Positions 1,082 through 7,121 of a DNA stretch of 23,793 nucleotides are shown one piece after another (position 1 is the stretch's first letter; each line of letters opens with the position of its first letter). The notes under the pieces were generated by a model. It saw nothing but the letters and a program-made list of their open reading frames with translations, did not search any database and had not been told where the DNA came from. The translations under genes and the position numbers were made by a program. Source of the DNA: a virus; the IMG/VR virus record IMGVR_UViG_3300042879_000676, positions 1 through 23,793 of that record. One strand, given 5' to 3'.

Positions 1082-1315
1082 TTAACGTGAAATTTCTTCC
1101 CAGTCCATTGATCCGTAGACACCCTCATTATTAGTTTTAGCTGCAAGCACAAGAGAAATCTCAAACGGCGTTCCGGTCAAACTGTTTCTCTCTAGCTGAA
1201 AGCTGAATAGTGCTTCTTTGAGAATATCCACAGACACGCTGGTGCTTTGCGTCGCCGTAAAGTAACCAGAGGCAAGGATTCTACCACCTGAGGTGCCATT
1301 TACCAAGCCTTGCAA
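1082..1315 (-). CDS. Small conserved-looking phage protein, non-ATG start overlapping upstream gene
   Basis: This 77-codon frame (TTG at 1315) ends with TAA 15 nt before the next gene. Its sequence looks like real protein rather than a shadow: a Gly/Ser/Thr-rich beta-type start (NGTSGGRILASGYF), then KEALFSFQLERNSLTGTPFE, ending DWEEISR. It lies in the -1 frame relative to the upstream 1036-residue gene and overlaps its last codons. No ATG exists in this frame near the start. The frame stays open upstream to a stop about 30 nt further on, so a CTG at 1336 (AGGG 5 nt before it) is an alternative start. Expression probably depends on translational coupling with the upstream stop, or on a frameshift; no classic slippery heptamer is visible. 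Function is not recognised. Its place between two virion-type genes suggests a structural role. Confidence 0.6.
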   Translation of the reverse strand: MQGLVNGTSGGRILASGYFTATQSTSVSVDILKEALFSFQLERNSLTGTPFEISLVLAAKTNNEGVYGSMDWEEISR

Positions 1316-4300
1316 GACCAGTAGCGCGGCATCCAGCGCGGCCCTGGGTTATCGCAGTTGTGGCGCGCGCGAAAATTGCTGCGGCGACCCGGAATGTTCT
1401 TCTTGATCGTCATATTGGGGTCACCAAAGCGAACGATCACAACCTTACCAGCACCGTTTGTCGTATAGACAGCCGACTTCTTAGGGCCACCAGGTGTGCG
1501 GAATGGCTTGTTCAGAGTTACCTTGCGACCTTGATATTCAGCCTCGGTGATCTCCAGCCCCTCTTCGACATCATCGCACTGGCAGTTGCCACCGCAACCA
1601 CAACCAGCATCATCTTCCTCTTCAACTGAAGGATGATTCGCATAACCAAATTGTGCGCGAATGCCTAGCTGTTGAGCCGTTGGTGCATCCATGATCCCAG
1701 GAGTGAAATCTTCGGATAGCTCTTTCTGCTCACGAATACCAGCTAGTGCCTTGCGGACATCCTTGTACGTCTGTGGTGATTTACCTGGGTCCTTAGCTTC
1801 CTGAGTCTCCCACGGTACAGGCGCAAGATAGCGCATATCTTGTTTAGATTCATTTTGACCAGGTGTGTCCTTCTTATAGATGCTTACAACTGAGTCTGTC
1901 CCAGTCTCACGATGACGCGGGTTTGGGTCACCCTCTACGCGAACTCGCTTGTGAACCTTGCGATAGACTATGCGACCATCAGGTAGTTTCTCTTTCTTAT
2001 ACTCAAAGTCGGCTGCGCGAACAATCTGTCCGAATGCTTCATTGACAGACTCCTTGCGAACTCTAGAAGCTAGATCCTTGTCAGCGCCACCCCAGGTACC
2101 CTTACCCTTCGTGATAAACGAATTGACGCGCGCATATGCCCACTGTTGCTGATTTGCACCAGGGCGATGACCCGTCTTCCATGCAGCCATACCACGATTA
2201 TAAACCTGACGAAGAATGCCAATCGGGATACCAGACTTCTCGGCCTTCTTAGCGAGACCTTGATCGGCCGCTTCTTCGACCGAAATCTTTGGCTTAACAT
2301 GTTTAATTAGTTTACCAACTTTACGATCTTTGACTGGGTCTTTACCATTGTATTCGTGTGTTCTAGTTTCATAGTGATCCATACCATCATCATCGAGGTG
2401 ACGTACACTATGAGTTATCTTTGAACCATCAGAGGATACATGAATGGACTGCGCCCGCCCATGCTTATCTTCTAAATGCTTTTTGACATGAGCTGGGACC
2501 CTCCAGCTCGCATTTCCGTCCTTAGTTGCTTCTGCAATTCGCTCGACTTCTTCACTGCGCTGCATCATTTTCTTGCGGAGATCCTGAACCTTCATTGCTT
2601 CGCGCTCCCTATCGTGCTTTCTATCTAGAGTCTCTTTTTCTCTACGTTGTTTATCCGCCACTAGCTTTGATGGCATGTCTGCTGATTCAAGATCATAGCG
2701 TGATGTTGGTACTGCGTGACCTAATGGCTGCACAGTTGGATCCAACTGAAATGGTACTACATTCTTGAATAGATTTCTATAGCCTGCGGCCTCTGAGAAT
2801 TCTTCGAACTTCTTATTGTAAGATGCAGACAGATATGAATATCTGACAGGCAGCTCAGGTGGGTTGAACTGCACATCATTTGCATTGTAATTGTCACCAA
2901 ATTGCTTGCGATACTTCAGAGTATGCACGCTAGTCTTTGTCTTTTTGTTATCACCAGGTGCCGACTTATATGCGCTCGGGTCGCTATCAGACATCTTTGT
3001 CTGTCTGTTGAATTGTGCAGCGCGAGCAGCGGCGGTGCCTTTGCCTAACCCAGCAAAATATTTGCGGCTTTCCAATGATAGCTCCTTGTCACCAAGATCG
3101 GCGCGTGCAGACCATAGTCTCTGTAGATCGCCGCGCGCACGTAGCAGCTTATACACTATATTCTCGACGCTATATTCGCCACCCTTAGCAAGTCCTGAGC
3201 TACGCATCTGACGTAGCTCGGCCAGTAGTGACTCAATCTCTGTTGCATCATTTGATCTTACGGCCGTATCAATCTCATCTTTGTATTGACGATACTTGCT
3301 ACGAACGCTAACGTCATCCATTGACGGCTTCTCATTCGTCGGGTGCTTGACCCACTTGTCATTCATAATGCTATAGACACCAGAGCTAACCGCTGGCTCC
3401 TCAGTCGGCTCGATGTATAGCTCGACCTCAAACCCGCGAATGTGGATCTTGTGTGTCTGGTTCCATAGGCTTTTCTTTGCATCAAATAGCTGGCGCATAT
3501 ATGCGCGCATTGATGCTCCACCCTTTAGCTTCACAACAACATGCAGGTCTATGTCGCTATGCTGCGTGTAGTGATAGCTTGCATTTGAACCTGTAAAGAC
3601 GATGTCCTTGACATCAAGCGGGACACCAACAAAGCGAATGAAGCTGTCAGCAATCTTGCGTAGCTGAATGCGAACCTCAGGCATGATGCGATCATCTGCA
3701 AACAGCGACGGGTTAAGCTCATCATGGGTACCGATGGCTTCGCTTGACTTGGGTTCGTCATCACCGTCTGGGTCATCTTCACGCTGTAGAGATAGCGCAC
3801 TCTCGGGCGGTACGCGATCTGCTGGTGTGAATGCTGATGTACCGCCACCAAACATATCATATTCTTCAACATGACCCATACCAGTGCGCACCATCTTCAT
3901 CACCCTATGTGCCGATGAGCGTAGCTTTTCTGGTAGGCCTGACTTGAAGCCTTCGTGATTGTTGTTCTTTGCATGTTCGCGCATCTTGGATGCTGACATG
4001 CCTTCAGCGCCTTCAGCGTCCGGGTCACGCTCGCCCGCAGAATGAACATGAATCTTGTCAAAGTGATATTCTTTTCCGTTGTAGCGATGCAGAAGCTCAT
4101 GCATTTCTTTGTGGCGATCACCACCGACAACAACGTGAACCTCTTTGCGCCCCTGCTTGTGCAGATGCTTCATCACATCGATGATAGTCTTATGTGGCCC
4201 AGACTTGACAGAATCACCAAAGGCCTTGCGAGCAAGCCCGACCTTCTGCGCGTGGGAGAGTGGGTTCTTTTTGCGATCCTGAGTGTGAGATAGGTGCACC

Positions 4301-4410
4301 TCGGCATCTGCGCCGTGCTTCTTTGCTGTAGAGTGTAGATGATCTACTAGCTTCTGATGACCTATGGTCGGCGGGTTCATACGACCGAACGTAATAGCAA
4401 CAGGCTTCAT
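1300..4410 (-). CDS. Large multidomain virion-type protein: cytidylyltransferase-like, Pol-beta-type nucleotidyltransferase, DUF5824-like and C-terminal FRARHNC module
   Basis: 1036 residues from an ATG behind GGGAGGG. Residues 1-180 form a cytidylyltransferase-like Rossmann domain, with (T/H)xGH at 15-18 (TIGH) and an ISxxxxR-like SASKMR at 139-144, as in NMN adenylyltransferases. Residues about 235-450 hold a Pol-beta-superfamily nucleotidyltransferase: GSN at 274-276 and SDIDLH at 285-290, with D286 and D288 as metal ligands and a possible third carboxylate in FEVEL (327-331). Residues 715-787 (VYNRGMAAWKTGHRPG, WAYARVNSFITKGKGTW) resemble the DUF5824 family. A cysteine cluster CGCGGNCQC lies at 937-945. 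The last 80 residues (VRFGDPNM ... RRSNFRARHNCDNPGP ... YWSCKAW) match a C-terminal module I know from many T4-like phage virion proteins. Between domains are I/L/V/F-x-E-A strings (E540, E627, E713, E791, E956) that look like prohead-protease sites. Domain calls are firm for both transferases. Substrates and packaging are inferred. Confidence 0.85.
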   Translation of the reverse strand: MKPVAITFGRMNPPTIGHQKLVDHLHSTAKKHGADAEVHLSHTQDRKKNPLSHAQKVGLARKAFGDSVKSGPHKTIIDVMKHLHKQGRKEVHVVVGGDRHKEMHELLHRYNGKEYHFDKIHVHSAGERDPDAEGAEGMSASKMREHAKNNNHEGFKSGLPEKLRSSAHRVMKMVRTGMGHVEEYDMFGGGTSAFTPADRVPPESALSLQREDDPDGDDEPKSSEAIGTHDELNPSLFADDRIMPEVRIQLRKIADSFIRFVGVPLDVKDIVFTGSNASYHYTQHSDIDLHVVVKLKGGASMRAYMRQLFDAKKSLWNQTHKIHIRGFEVELYIEPTEEPAVSSGVYSIMNDKWVKHPTNEKPSMDDVSVRSKYRQYKDEIDTAVRSNDATEIESLLAELRQMRSSGLAKGGEYSVENIVYKLLRARGDLQRLWSARADLGDKELSLESRKYFAGLGKGTAAARAAQFNRQTKMSDSDPSAYKSAPGDNKKTKTSVHTLKYRKQFGDNYNANDVQFNPPELPVRYSYLSASYNKKFEEFSEAAGYRNLFKNVVPFQLDPTVQPLGHAVPTSRYDLESADMPSKLVADKQRREKETLDRKHDREREAMKVQDLRKKMMQRSEEVERIAEATKDGNASWRVPAHVKKHLEDKHGRAQSIHVSSDGSKITHSVRHLDDDGMDHYETRTHEYNGKDPVKDRKVGKLIKHVKPKISVEEAADQGLAKKAEKSGIPIGILRQVYNRGMAAWKTGHRPGANQQQWAYARVNSFITKGKGTWGGADKDLASRVRKESVNEAFGQIVRAADFEYKKEKLPDGRIVYRKVHKRVRVEGDPNPRHRETGTDSVVSIYKKDTPGQNESKQDMRYLAPVPWETQEAKDPGKSPQTYKDVRKALAGIREQKELSEDFTPGIMDAPTAQQLGIRAQFGYANHPSVEEEDDAGCGCGGNCQCDDVEEGLEITEAEYQGRKVTLNKPFRTPGGPKKSAVYTTNGAGKVVIVRFGDPNMTIKKNIPGRRSNFRARHNCDNPGPRWMPRYWSCKAW

Positions 4411-4468: not shown

Positions 4469-5641
4469 TTAGCGCCTTGTGGCTAGTAAATTAGCGCGAC
4501 TGAATTCACCGCGATCAACTAGCTTAGTCGGTGCACCATCTTTGATTGCGACAAAGCCTTCAGGCTTGGCGCGCTGGCCACCGATGGTGTGCTGAAATGG
4601 TCCTGGGTTAGATGACAGTGCACCAACCAATACATTCTTAGCATTTTGCAGATGATGATGCACCTCAAATGCACGATCAATATGATGCGAATTTGCATCA
4701 AGATGATCTAGCGCATCTTTCAATTCTTGCTGACGCACCGAGCGAGCTTTGTCTGTCTTTAGGGTGGACATCGCCTTTGCATATCTGGTAGTAACATACT
4801 TCTTCAGCCCGTCAGTTGTAGGCTTAGTGCCCTGACGCACGGTATCATTAATATACATCTTGATATGATCGCGGTGTCTCTCTACAGCTTTGTGTGATGC
4901 TGGCGTCATTTGAGACGCAGCAGCCTTAGCCTTTTTGATGTGCGATTCATATTCGCGTTCTTGCGCGGTAGTGTAACCAGTACGCTCTACTGGGTGCTCA
5001 ACCGATATCATATGCACATCATTATGTTGCTTGAATGCGTTTTCGTCGGGGTCGAATGACGCCTTCATTGTCTGTAGTGTTGAACCAGTATAACGTGTAT
5101 GAACGGCTACACCTATTTTCGATTTAGCAATCTTCTTTCCGATAGAGCTATCTTTCGGTGTAGAGTATGTGATGGTGTTAGGTTTGAAATTGAGATTACC
5201 GTCTTGCTCTTTTACATCTTCAGGTGTATGCATAATGTCACCCTGAAACACTTGACCCTTTGGCGTCACCTTTGATAGATGTGCGAGCGCAGCCTTTAGC
5301 TTGGAAACAAGCCCTGGCGCATGACCATGATTGGCTACAATATCTTCGTCGGTGTAATTCAGCTTGGGTGTAACGTTGAATGCAGATTTTGATGCGACGA
5401 AAAACTTCTTGTTCTCTGGGTGATAACCGAATACGATTGATGGTGACCCATCGTATTTCATTGTCACCTTTACTTTGCTATCTTTTCGTCTTAGCTGATC
5501 ATGTACGCCATTTAGCGTATCAACTGCGTGCTTGAAACCTACTGCACCCAGATTGATGTGATGATCCTCAGCATGTTCTAGATGCTTTAGCTTGTCATCT
5601 GACGCGACTGATTCAGCTAGAAAATTTCTAAATGCTAACAT
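4469..5641 (-). CDS. DUF6267-like protein with DNA/RNA ligase-type nucleotidyltransferase motifs
   Basis: 390 residues from ATG 5641, which overlaps the upstream stop as TAATG; a GTG at 5647 is an alternative. I associate the sequence with DUF6267, a phage family of unknown function, from memory. It shows the motif order of covalent nucleotidyltransferases (DNA/RNA ligases, capping enzymes): motif I KYDG (62-65, K62 as candidate acceptor of the nucleotidyl group), a motif III-like VFQGDIMH (131-138), a motif IIIa-like IGVAVHTRY (176-184), motif IV PEGFVAIKDG (360-369) and a motif V-like TKLVDR (372-377, K373). A long helical, His/Lys-rich stretch (about 225-345) separates IIIa from IV, an insertion unlike compact ligases. 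The N-terminus MLAFRNFLAE-S resembles the T4 capsid-targeting sequence with glutamate at position 10. Ligase-like chemistry and packaging into the head are inferences. Confidence 0.8.
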   Translation of the reverse strand: MLAFRNFLAESVASDDKLKHLEHAEDHHINLGAVGFKHAVDTLNGVHDQLRRKDSKVKVTMKYDGSPSIVFGYHPENKKFFVASKSAFNVTPKLNYTDEDIVANHGHAPGLVSKLKAALAHLSKVTPKGQVFQGDIMHTPEDVKEQDGNLNFKPNTITYSTPKDSSIGKKIAKSKIGVAVHTRYTGSTLQTMKASFDPDENAFKQHNDVHMISVEHPVERTGYTTAQEREYESHIKKAKAAASQMTPASHKAVERHRDHIKMYINDTVRQGTKPTTDGLKKYVTTRYAKAMSTLKTDKARSVRQQELKDALDHLDANSHHIDRAFEVHHHLQNAKNVLVGALSSNPGPFQHTIGGQRAKPEGFVAIKDGAPTKLVDRGEFSRANLLATRR

Positions 5642-6552
5642 TACCACGGGTCCCCCGAAAGCTTCATAGAAGACGCCATCTTTTCAGATTCAAATTTAAA
5701 ACGAATTTTCATTATTTTCTTAGCCCCAGCTCTTACACCTATAGAATCATTTCCAACCTTTTCTAAGGTTACTTTATACTTTTGTAATGCACTTAACTTT
5801 TCGTTTTCTGTTGGGTCCATAACTGATGCAGCATAAGGCGGCTTATTACCCTGACCCGTAACTTTAATGTAGGGTGGGTACATTAAATCGGCATCCATCC
5901 AATCTTTCGTCAGATATTTTATTAACTCGGGTTGTTTCATCTTTAACATTCTAGCGAGCAAAATATCTCTGAGACTTGAAAGAAGCTTAGAACCAATCTC
6001 TTCAGTTTTTTGTTTTATACCAGCGTTTGCTCTTATGTAAGTTTTTCTTTCTGATGTGCTTTCTGGTAGTTTAAATTTTTTAATTGTTGTCTCTAAAACT
6101 TTTTTATATTCTGCGGCAAGATTAAGTTTTAAACTTGTATCTACAGTACCAACGCCAGGGTTTTTAAACCCAATGTCACCTTTTGTTTTTGTTGCTTTCG
6201 CCGAAAGACCAAGAAACCCATCATTTGGGCCACTAGTGAATTTGATTAATATGTCAGTTGGGTTCTTGCTTTGATCTACGGGTCTACCTACAGCAGCTTG
6301 CATCGACCCAGGTCTAGCAGTCCACCAAACAGTTTTTACAGTACCAGAATAACCATTTTTCTTTGCCCAATCTTTAAAAGCTTTTGCCATTACTTCAGCT
6401 TTACCGATGGCGTCAGCAACCTCAGCAGCTTTGGCCTGCTTTACTCTATTGTTAAATTGTATCTTGGCTTGCTCATCATACCATTTTTTATTGGCTAAAA
6501 AGTAGCCAATTTGAATTTCATTTATGTCTGAGAGTATTGTGTTTTGTGTCAT
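5641..6552 (-). CDS. Conserved phage protein of unknown function, possibly nuclease-like
   Basis: 303 residues, ATG 5 nt after the stop of the upstream ADP-ribosyltransferase-like gene, with its own stop overlapping the next start (TAATG). An N-terminal helical region with a WYDEQ segment (24-28) leads to a central region with VKTVWWTARPG, then NPTDILIKF and, after about 12 residues, FLGLSAKATKTKGDIGFKNPG. The D ... S-x-K spacing and the flanking hydrophobic strands resemble the core of PD-(D/E)XK nucleases with serine in place of the acidic residue, which is weak evidence. A C-terminal region contains YPPYIKVTGQG and a strand-rich end (KKIMKIRFKFESEK). The base composition is more AT-rich than that of the neighbours, with long T runs on the plus strand, which may indicate different ancestry. 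I recall similar proteins in marine T4-like phages but no established function. Confidence 0.75.
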   Translation of the reverse strand: MTQNTILSDINEIQIGYFLANKKWYDEQAKIQFNNRVKQAKAAEVADAIGKAEVMAKAFKDWAKKNGYSGTVKTVWWTARPGSMQAAVGRPVDQSKNPTDILIKFTSGPNDGFLGLSAKATKTKGDIGFKNPGVGTVDTSLKLNLAAEYKKVLETTIKKFKLPESTSERKTYIRANAGIKQKTEEIGSKLLSSLRDILLARMLKMKQPELIKYLTKDWMDADLMYPPYIKVTGQGNKPPYAASVMDPTENEKLSALQKYKVTLEKVGNDSIGVRAGAKKIMKIRFKFESEKMASSMKLSGDPW

Positions 6553-6557
6553 AATAC

Positions 6558-7097
6558 TTACTCAAACTGTTTCATGTAGCCTTCGATAAACTCGGGCGGA
6601 ATAGGCTTCTTAAATCGAACCTCTGTGGCAGCATAATATTCTGAATCAAACTTATCTGGGTTCTTAGCAACCCACTTTGCATATTCGTTTCTGTCCATCA
6701 TATGCTTCTTGGCATCACCCATATTACCACGCAGTTCGGCGTCCATGTGACGCTCTGCCCAGTCTGCGGGGATTTTCAGTTTGATGACAGATCGCTGACT
6801 ATGAGGAACACCAACTGCCTTTGAACCAGCGCCTCTGAAATTTGCTTCGCCACCTGCGCCAGACATAGAAGCATATGCGTGCGCTGTTCTAGCATCGGGT
6901 GTAGTAGAATACATTCCAGTCTTAGGGTCGGGTCTATTGATACCCGACTTTAACATCGACTGAACATTGCGGTCATGGGTGCCGTGATAGAGAATGTAGT
7001 GATCACCTTCTCTCCACCACCCACGACGCTTAGTCGTTTTATCAAATGGTAGTCTCTTAGCTTCTACCTGTTCTGTTAACCATCTTTTGAACGACAT
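6558..7097 (-). CDS. Predicted ADP-ribosyltransferase (H-Y-E class) with capsid-targeting-like N-terminus
   Basis: 179 residues. ATG 7097 is chosen over the in-frame GTG at 7103 because AGAGG lies 5 nt upstream of it. The core fits the diphtheria-toxin/PARP-like ADP-ribosyltransferase fold: YHGTHDRNVQSMLKSGI (37-53, H38 as NAD-binding histidine), then MYSTTPDARTAHAYA (62-76, Y63 or Y75), and late ATEVRF (157-162, E159 as the catalytic acid). The same fold includes RNA 2'-phosphotransferases (KptA/Tpt1), a possible alternative. T4 carries ADP-ribosyltransferases (Alt, ModA, ModB) that modify host RNA polymerase and other proteins; those are R-S-E type, so this would be a different branch. The N-terminus MSFKRWLTE resembles T4 internal-protein targeting peptides. 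A late promoter-like box lies about 25 nt upstream. The fold is likely; target and packaging are inferred. Confidence 0.75.
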   Translation of the reverse strand: MSFKRWLTEQVEAKRLPFDKTTKRRGWWREGDHYILYHGTHDRNVQSMLKSGINRPDPKTGMYSTTPDARTAHAYASMSGAGGEANFRGAGSKAVGVPHSQRSVIKLKIPADWAERHMDAELRGNMGDAKKHMMDRNEYAKWVAKNPDKFDSEYYAATEVRFKKPIPPEFIEGYMKQFE

Positions 7098-7121
7098 GGC
7101 CACCTCTGTATTCTGTAGCCA

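Follow-up and report, generated by a model that had tools for sequence, protein, structure and literature searches.

DUF6267 of T4-like phages: a predicted ligase-type nucleotidyltransferase with a capsid-targeting-like tag in part of the family

Surveys of phage RNA repair assign most ATP-dependent RNA ligases of phages to Rnl1 and Rnl2, divergent forms being rare (PMC7824862). Among the internal head proteins of phage T4 (IPI-III and Alt), IPII and IPIII carry a 10-residue N-terminal tag with aromatic residues at positions 4 and 7, a leucine or isoleucine at position 8 and a glutamate at position 10. Mutations in IPIII assign positions 4 and 7 to targeting and positions 8 and 10 to cutting by gp21, which cleaves after L/I-x-E (PMC9026906). 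Here we describe a protein of the family DUF6267 that is predicted to combine a ligase-type catalytic fold with such a tag. It is encoded in a 23.8-kb virus record, IMGVR_UViG_3300042879_000676, a fragment that ends short of the head genes and whose whole length is called the window below:

4469..5641, minus strand: DUF6267 gene, 390 amino acids (aa), predicted ligase-type covalent nucleotidyltransferase (PF19782, phrog_455, structure model and structural matches)

The coordinates and residue numbering of a first-pass annotation made from the sequence fit this gene, and its strand was corrected to minus: the open reading frame (ORF) has its ATG at 5641 and its stop at 4469, and the plus strand over the same interval is broken by many stops. 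The start codon and the stop of the preceding gene overlap as TAATG. The protein matches the full length of the Pfam DUF6267 profile (PF19782; residues 19-387, E 1.6e-96) and phrog_455 (E 7.4e-93), neither of which has an assigned function in Pfam or PHROG; a literature search found no paper naming DUF6267. At least 453 phage records contain relatives, most of them from phages of marine cyanobacteria; the records are almost entirely of T4-like phages, whose hosts are Synechococcus and Prochlorococcus, with Pelagibacter, Methylophilales and a few others in addition. Hundreds of viral contigs also carry them, as do 13 contigs of metagenome-assembled genome bins, which are probably phage sequence binned together with hosts.

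Predicted fold, motifs and relation to known ligases

The AlphaFold2 model of the window protein (predicted local distance difference test, pLDDT, 93.8; predicted template modelling score, pTM, 0.90) has the strand order of ligases. A strand at residues 58-62 ends at motif I, strand 131-138 bears motif III, strand 176-185 stands at the place of IIIa, motif IV lies at 361 with strand 362-367, and motif V is on 370-374. When compared with PDB chains by VIA-align, the model finds the Naegleria RNA ligase first (Z 9.6, 184 residues, root-mean-square deviation (rmsd) 3.5 A), followed by the trypanosome RNA editing ligase (Z 8.2), T4 Rnl2 (7.8), and T4 Rnl1 and fungal Trl1 (both 7.5), with archaeal RNA ligases and DNA ligases ranking below these. 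A homolog from phage S-RIM8, of a short cyanophage type in which the insertion is much smaller, was given a model of its own (pLDDT 90.3), and this also retrieves the Naegleria enzyme first (Z 8.8, 173 residues, rmsd 3.7), with T4 Rnl1 at 8.2; its best eight Foldseek matches are all ligases. The best 50 PDB entries for each of the two models are all ligase-type covalent nucleotidyltransferases, and a different fold was seen in neither.

The first-pass annotation had read an ordered series of motifs in the protein as those of ligases and capping enzymes, with IIIa and IV set apart by a long insertion of helices. Translation of the minus-strand ORF places KYDG, QGD, the IIIa-like strand, PEGFVAIKDG and TKLV at the residues and in the order that it gave, and the model bears out the insertion as helices, which are reduced in the 298-aa cyanophage members:

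5447..5458, minus strand: motif I, K62-Y-D-G65, with the predicted nucleotidyl-lysine; K, D and G in 61/61 homologs
5387..5389, minus strand: K85 on the strand after motif I (FVASKSAF); 61/61; compare KSKxSI of the T4 Rnl1 alignment consensus
5237..5245, minus strand: motif III-like Q133-G-D135; Q and D in 61/61
5087..5116, minus strand: motif IIIa-like strand, aa 176-185; a strand in the model, at the place expected for IIIa, assigned by its order
4616..4969, minus strand: helical insertion between IIIa and IV, aa 225-342; from the model; shorter in the cyanophage branch
4535..4564, minus strand: motif IV, P360-E361-G-F-V-A-I-K-D-G369; E, G and V in 60/60
4517..4528, minus strand: motif V, T372-K373-L-V375; K in 60/60

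Conservation was examined in 61 diverse DUF6267 proteins with 27-55% identity to the window protein. Against a mean column identity of 41%, K62, D64, G65, K85, Q133 and D135 are identical in all 61, and E361, G362, V364, K373 and R377 in all 60 that contain the region; the motif I consensus is KxDG(S/A)P. The corresponding K, D, G, K, D, E, K and R are found in every one of a second set of 38 sequences, in which the short cyanophage branch is represented. Since these residues are invariant across the homologs, among them the K62, D64 and E361 whose variation would have spoken for another reading, the motif matches of the window protein are, as judged by this conservation, not due to chance. 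The order of secondary structures and the full-length structural alignments (model residues 16-387 on residues 142-339 of the Naegleria RNA ligase chain) suggest that K62, E361 and K373 would meet in one pocket. The predicted fold and the invariant motif residues thus support the ligase/capping-type reading, and it is very likely that DUF6267 belongs to the covalent nucleotidyltransferase superfamily of ligases and capping enzymes. Most likely it is a minimal nucleotidyltransferase of the ligase type that carries a helical insertion and has no C-terminal domain.

The nick-sealing RNA ligase of Naegleria gruberi, the best structural match of both models, shares with DUF6267 the order of motifs, and the spacing from the motif IV glutamate to the motif V lysine is 12 in DUF6267 and 14 in the Naegleria enzyme (E312 and K326, from entry titles). 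Their sequence identity is 10-12%, and DUF6267 differs in its long IIIa-IV helical insertion and in lacking the extra N-terminal domain. T4 Rnl1 resembles it in having KxDGS at motif I, an SK strand next and EGxVxV followed by a lysine (Z 7.5 and 8.2 for the two models). Unlike Rnl1, DUF6267 has neither an RNA_lig_T4_1 match (PF09511; no Pfam hit with E of 1 or less) nor the Rnl1 C-terminal domain, and the equivalents of T4 Rnl1 E159 and K242 are D and V. The fold is likewise common to T4 Rnl2 and trypanosome RNA editing ligase 1 (Z 7.8 and 8.2), whereas motif I of T4 Rnl2 is KIHG, the C-terminal domain of full-length Rnl2 is missing from DUF6267, and the RNA_ligase family (PF09414) is likewise without a Pfam hit at this cutoff. 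DUF6267 therefore falls within no named ligase family, and it would be another divergent group of phage RNA ligases.

The N-terminal tag

5612..5641, minus strand: tag MLAFRNFLAE (aa 1-10), resembling the capsid-targeting propeptide of T4 IPIII, with prohead-protease cleavage predicted after E10 (IPII/IPIII register, low pLDDT, enrichment)

The N-terminus of the window protein stands in register with MKTYQEFIAE, the start of T4 IPII/IPIII in the database record, through F4, F7, L8 and E10, the four positions that count in the IPIII mutants, and residues 1-13 have pLDDT under 50 in the model. This match of a DUF6267 N-terminus to the IPIII capsid-targeting peptide is new here. What sets it apart from the T4 internal head proteins is that the cargo would be a predicted ligase-type enzyme and that its packaging is predicted from sequence. 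We surveyed 114 non-redundant DUF6267 loci for the strict form of the tag. It is present on 63/114 DUF6267 genes and on 15/866 other genes (p 8e-53, with related sequences counted as independent); several of these 15 are likely cargo themselves, such as the ART-like gene described below and a kinase of phage S-CRM01. It also occurs on 41/185 genes of a linked cluster of HIGH-type nucleotidyltransferases and on 8/16 genes of one upstream cluster. The 155-kb relative G001 has it on only 2 of 194 ORFs (0.2 expected), namely DUF6267 and its ART-like neighbour. A gp21-type protease (PF03420) is encoded in all three near-complete relatives scanned; the relatives with it are G001-G003 and G011.

The virion protein list of cyanophage S-CREM2 (PMC10665884) allows the tag to be compared with packaging outside the DUF6267 family. 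Over the genome parts covered, 5/7 tagged and 11/125 untagged non-structural genes have products detected in virions (p 3e-4), and the tag thus predicts virion detection in this phage.

Neighbouring genes

1300..4410, minus strand: 1036-aa protein downstream of DUF6267, with a HIGH-type nucleotidyltransferase domain, a weak pol-beta nucleotidyltransferase match, DUF5824 and a C-terminal phrog_7595 domain (family matches)
5641..6552, minus strand: 303-aa ORF upstream, with a one-base overlap with the DUF6267 start; neighbour kept in 16/114 loci
6558..7103, minus strand: ADP-ribosyltransferase (ART)-like ORF with a similar tag, (MA)MSFKRWLTE (ORF, family matches, tag)

The most constant partner of DUF6267 is the HIGH-type nucleotidyltransferase domain, whose fold is unrelated to that of DUF6267. 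It is found in 98/114 loci, mostly at the +1 position, and is fused to DUF6267 in 10; the fusion is also seen in phrog_455 and in phage metaG-MbCM1. The metaG-MbCM1 gene (locus L163, 3992-6178) is annotated as 'NrdB ribonucleotide reductase A subunit', yet it encodes this DUF6267-HIGH nucleotidyltransferase fusion, and the public NrdB name looks wrong. Related HIGH-type enzymes of cyanophages, the tagged nicotinamide mononucleotide adenylyltransferase (NMNAT)/cytidylyltransferases S-CREM2 ORF154 and S-SCSM1 ORF91, are present in virions, the S-SCSM1 NMNAT being both tagged and virion-detected. In the window protein of 1036 aa an ITE|A site precedes the C-terminal domain, and in the relative G002 the counterpart of this domain is encoded on its own and bears a tag itself (MFTFKQYILEAE); the prohead protease may thus cleave the 1036-aa protein.

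A P-loop kinase of the Zeta_toxin/AAA_33 type accompanies DUF6267 in 30/114 loci, mostly within three genes downstream, and phage HTVC008M has an NT5C-type phosphatase nearby as well. A set of kinase, phosphatase and ligase would suit end repair, which is only suggestive. The ART-like ORF contains the pattern HGT...G...STT, matches ART-PolyVal, PARP and KptA weakly, and has relatives in 45 Vibrio phages; from these sequence features it is possibly a packaged ADP-ribosyltransferase comparable to T4 Alt, which it recalls. A Pfam search gave no family match for the 303-aa ORF, whose NPTD...GLSAK pattern is nuclease-like by eye only. Elsewhere, an FxxFLxE-type tag is borne in S-CREM2 (locus L437, 3837-13331) by three virion-detected proteins, an S-adenosylmethionine (SAM) hydrolase, a Cas9-annotated protein and an APH-like kinase, and in S-CRM01 by the kinase mentioned above (locus L082, 7685-10150).

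Weighing the roles of DUF6267

Several observations weigh against a packaged ligase-type enzyme. The model has no oligonucleotide-binding (OB) fold with motif VI and no other C-terminal domain: the protein ends 17 residues past K373, in one helix, and hence there is room for neither an OB nor an Rnl C-terminal domain. The acidic residue of motif III, on core strand 131-138, is D135 in 61/61 homologs and not the usual E, and motif V lacks the second lysine, position 375 being V, N or I. In plain Foldseek searches of the PDB neither model had a hit with E below 0.05. Profile-profile comparison, which the first-pass annotation had proposed as a check, did not show the link to RNA ligases: hhalign gave no significant score against phage alignments of Rnl1 or Rnl2, whether with the whole protein or with the insertion removed, and for Rnl2 reversed-profile controls scored about equal to the real profile. 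PDB sequence searches with the single sequence and with the profile returned only chance matches, mainly within the helical insertion.

On the side of packaging, the p-values of the tag treat related sequences as independent, and the short cyanophage branch is without it. So are the DUF6267 proteins of S-CREM2, S-SCSM1 and S-CREM1, three phages with published virion proteomes; that of S-CREM2 is not in the published virion table (PMC10665884), and those of S-SCSM1 and S-CREM1 are not marked as virion proteins in the record annotation or main text. Since the checked phages have untagged DUF6267 proteins, with the S-CREM2 one not in its table, packaging is predicted from the N-terminal sequence for the tagged lineages, the window's included, and not for the whole family.

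Other roles for the fold have to be considered. One is a DNA nick-sealing ligase that replaces the T4 gp30-type enzyme absent from many DUF6267 phages. We scanned nine DUF6267 phages for DNA_ligase_A_M, DNA_ligase_aden, RNA_ligase and RNA_lig_T4_1, and six of them (HTVC008M, S-RIM8, S-SCSM1, S-CREM2 and two contigs) had no match to any of the four families, while T4 has gp30 and no DUF6267 match; the gene also often adjoins the replication genes 43, uvsX and 41. Yet S-CRM01 and the relative G001 combine a DNA ligase match with DUF6267 (S-CREM1, the last of the nine, matches RNA ligase), the host ligase may suffice, DUF6267 has no OB or DNA-binding domain, and its closest folds are RNA ligases; we regard this role as unlikely. 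We judge equally improbable a ligase fold that transfers a nucleotide to protein or to a 5' RNA end, as modification or capping, acting with the HIGH enzyme and the ART in host takeover. A minimal catalytic domain without a nucleic-acid-binding module would fit such a role, as would the cargo-type neighbours with the same tag (the ART-like gene, the kinase and the HIGH nucleotidyltransferase) and the precedent of T4 Alt, a packaged ART annotated as acting on RNA polymerase; nevertheless, the close structural matches are all nucleic-acid ligases and the sequence suggests no target.

On a further reading the protein has this fold but serves for binding or as a scaffold, without catalysis, which would account for the E-to-D change in motif III and the missing second lysine of motif V. 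Invariance of the nucleophile lysine, D64, G65, K85, D135, E361, K373 and R377 is hardly to be expected of an inactive enzyme, and this reading seems to us very improbable. A LigA-like NAD+ ligase coupled to nicotinamide mononucleotide (NMN) recycling by the HIGH enzyme has no specific support, and only about 46 ordered residues lie ahead of motif I.

We thus regard it as fairly probable that DUF6267 is a superfamily enzyme closest to the RNA ligases, with a HIGH-type partner, and that it is packed and delivered in the lineage of the window. An enzyme-lysyl-AMP would arise by attack of K62 on the alpha-phosphate of ATP (or NAD+), with D64, D135 and E361 binding metal or ribose and K85, K373 and R377 handling phosphates. 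The AMP would then pass to a 5'-phosphate end and the break be sealed, probably in RNA because the nearest folds are RNA ligases; the adjoining or fused HIGH-type nucleotidyltransferase would act in the same pathway. Since the enzyme of the window lineage bears a T4-type capsid-targeting propeptide, it would probably enter the prohead, lose its tag to the gp21-type protease and reach the host along with the DNA, and it could therefore act before any phage gene is expressed. A broader scenario, which we put forward tentatively and with some doubt, is that T4-like phages pack this IPIII-tagged ligase-type enzyme as part of a cargo operon, together with the HIGH nucleotidyltransferase, ART, kinase and other items, and inject it to work ahead of all phage gene expression, either mending RNA or DNA breaks that host defence has caused or modifying host molecules.

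An enzymatic role would annotate a widespread gene in some of the most abundant phages, and DUF6267 may explain how phages that have no recognised ligase come by such a function. The tag, for its part, offers a simple rule, supported by the S-CREM2 virion data, by which injected cargo proteins of T4-like phages of aquatic bacteria can be picked out from sequence.
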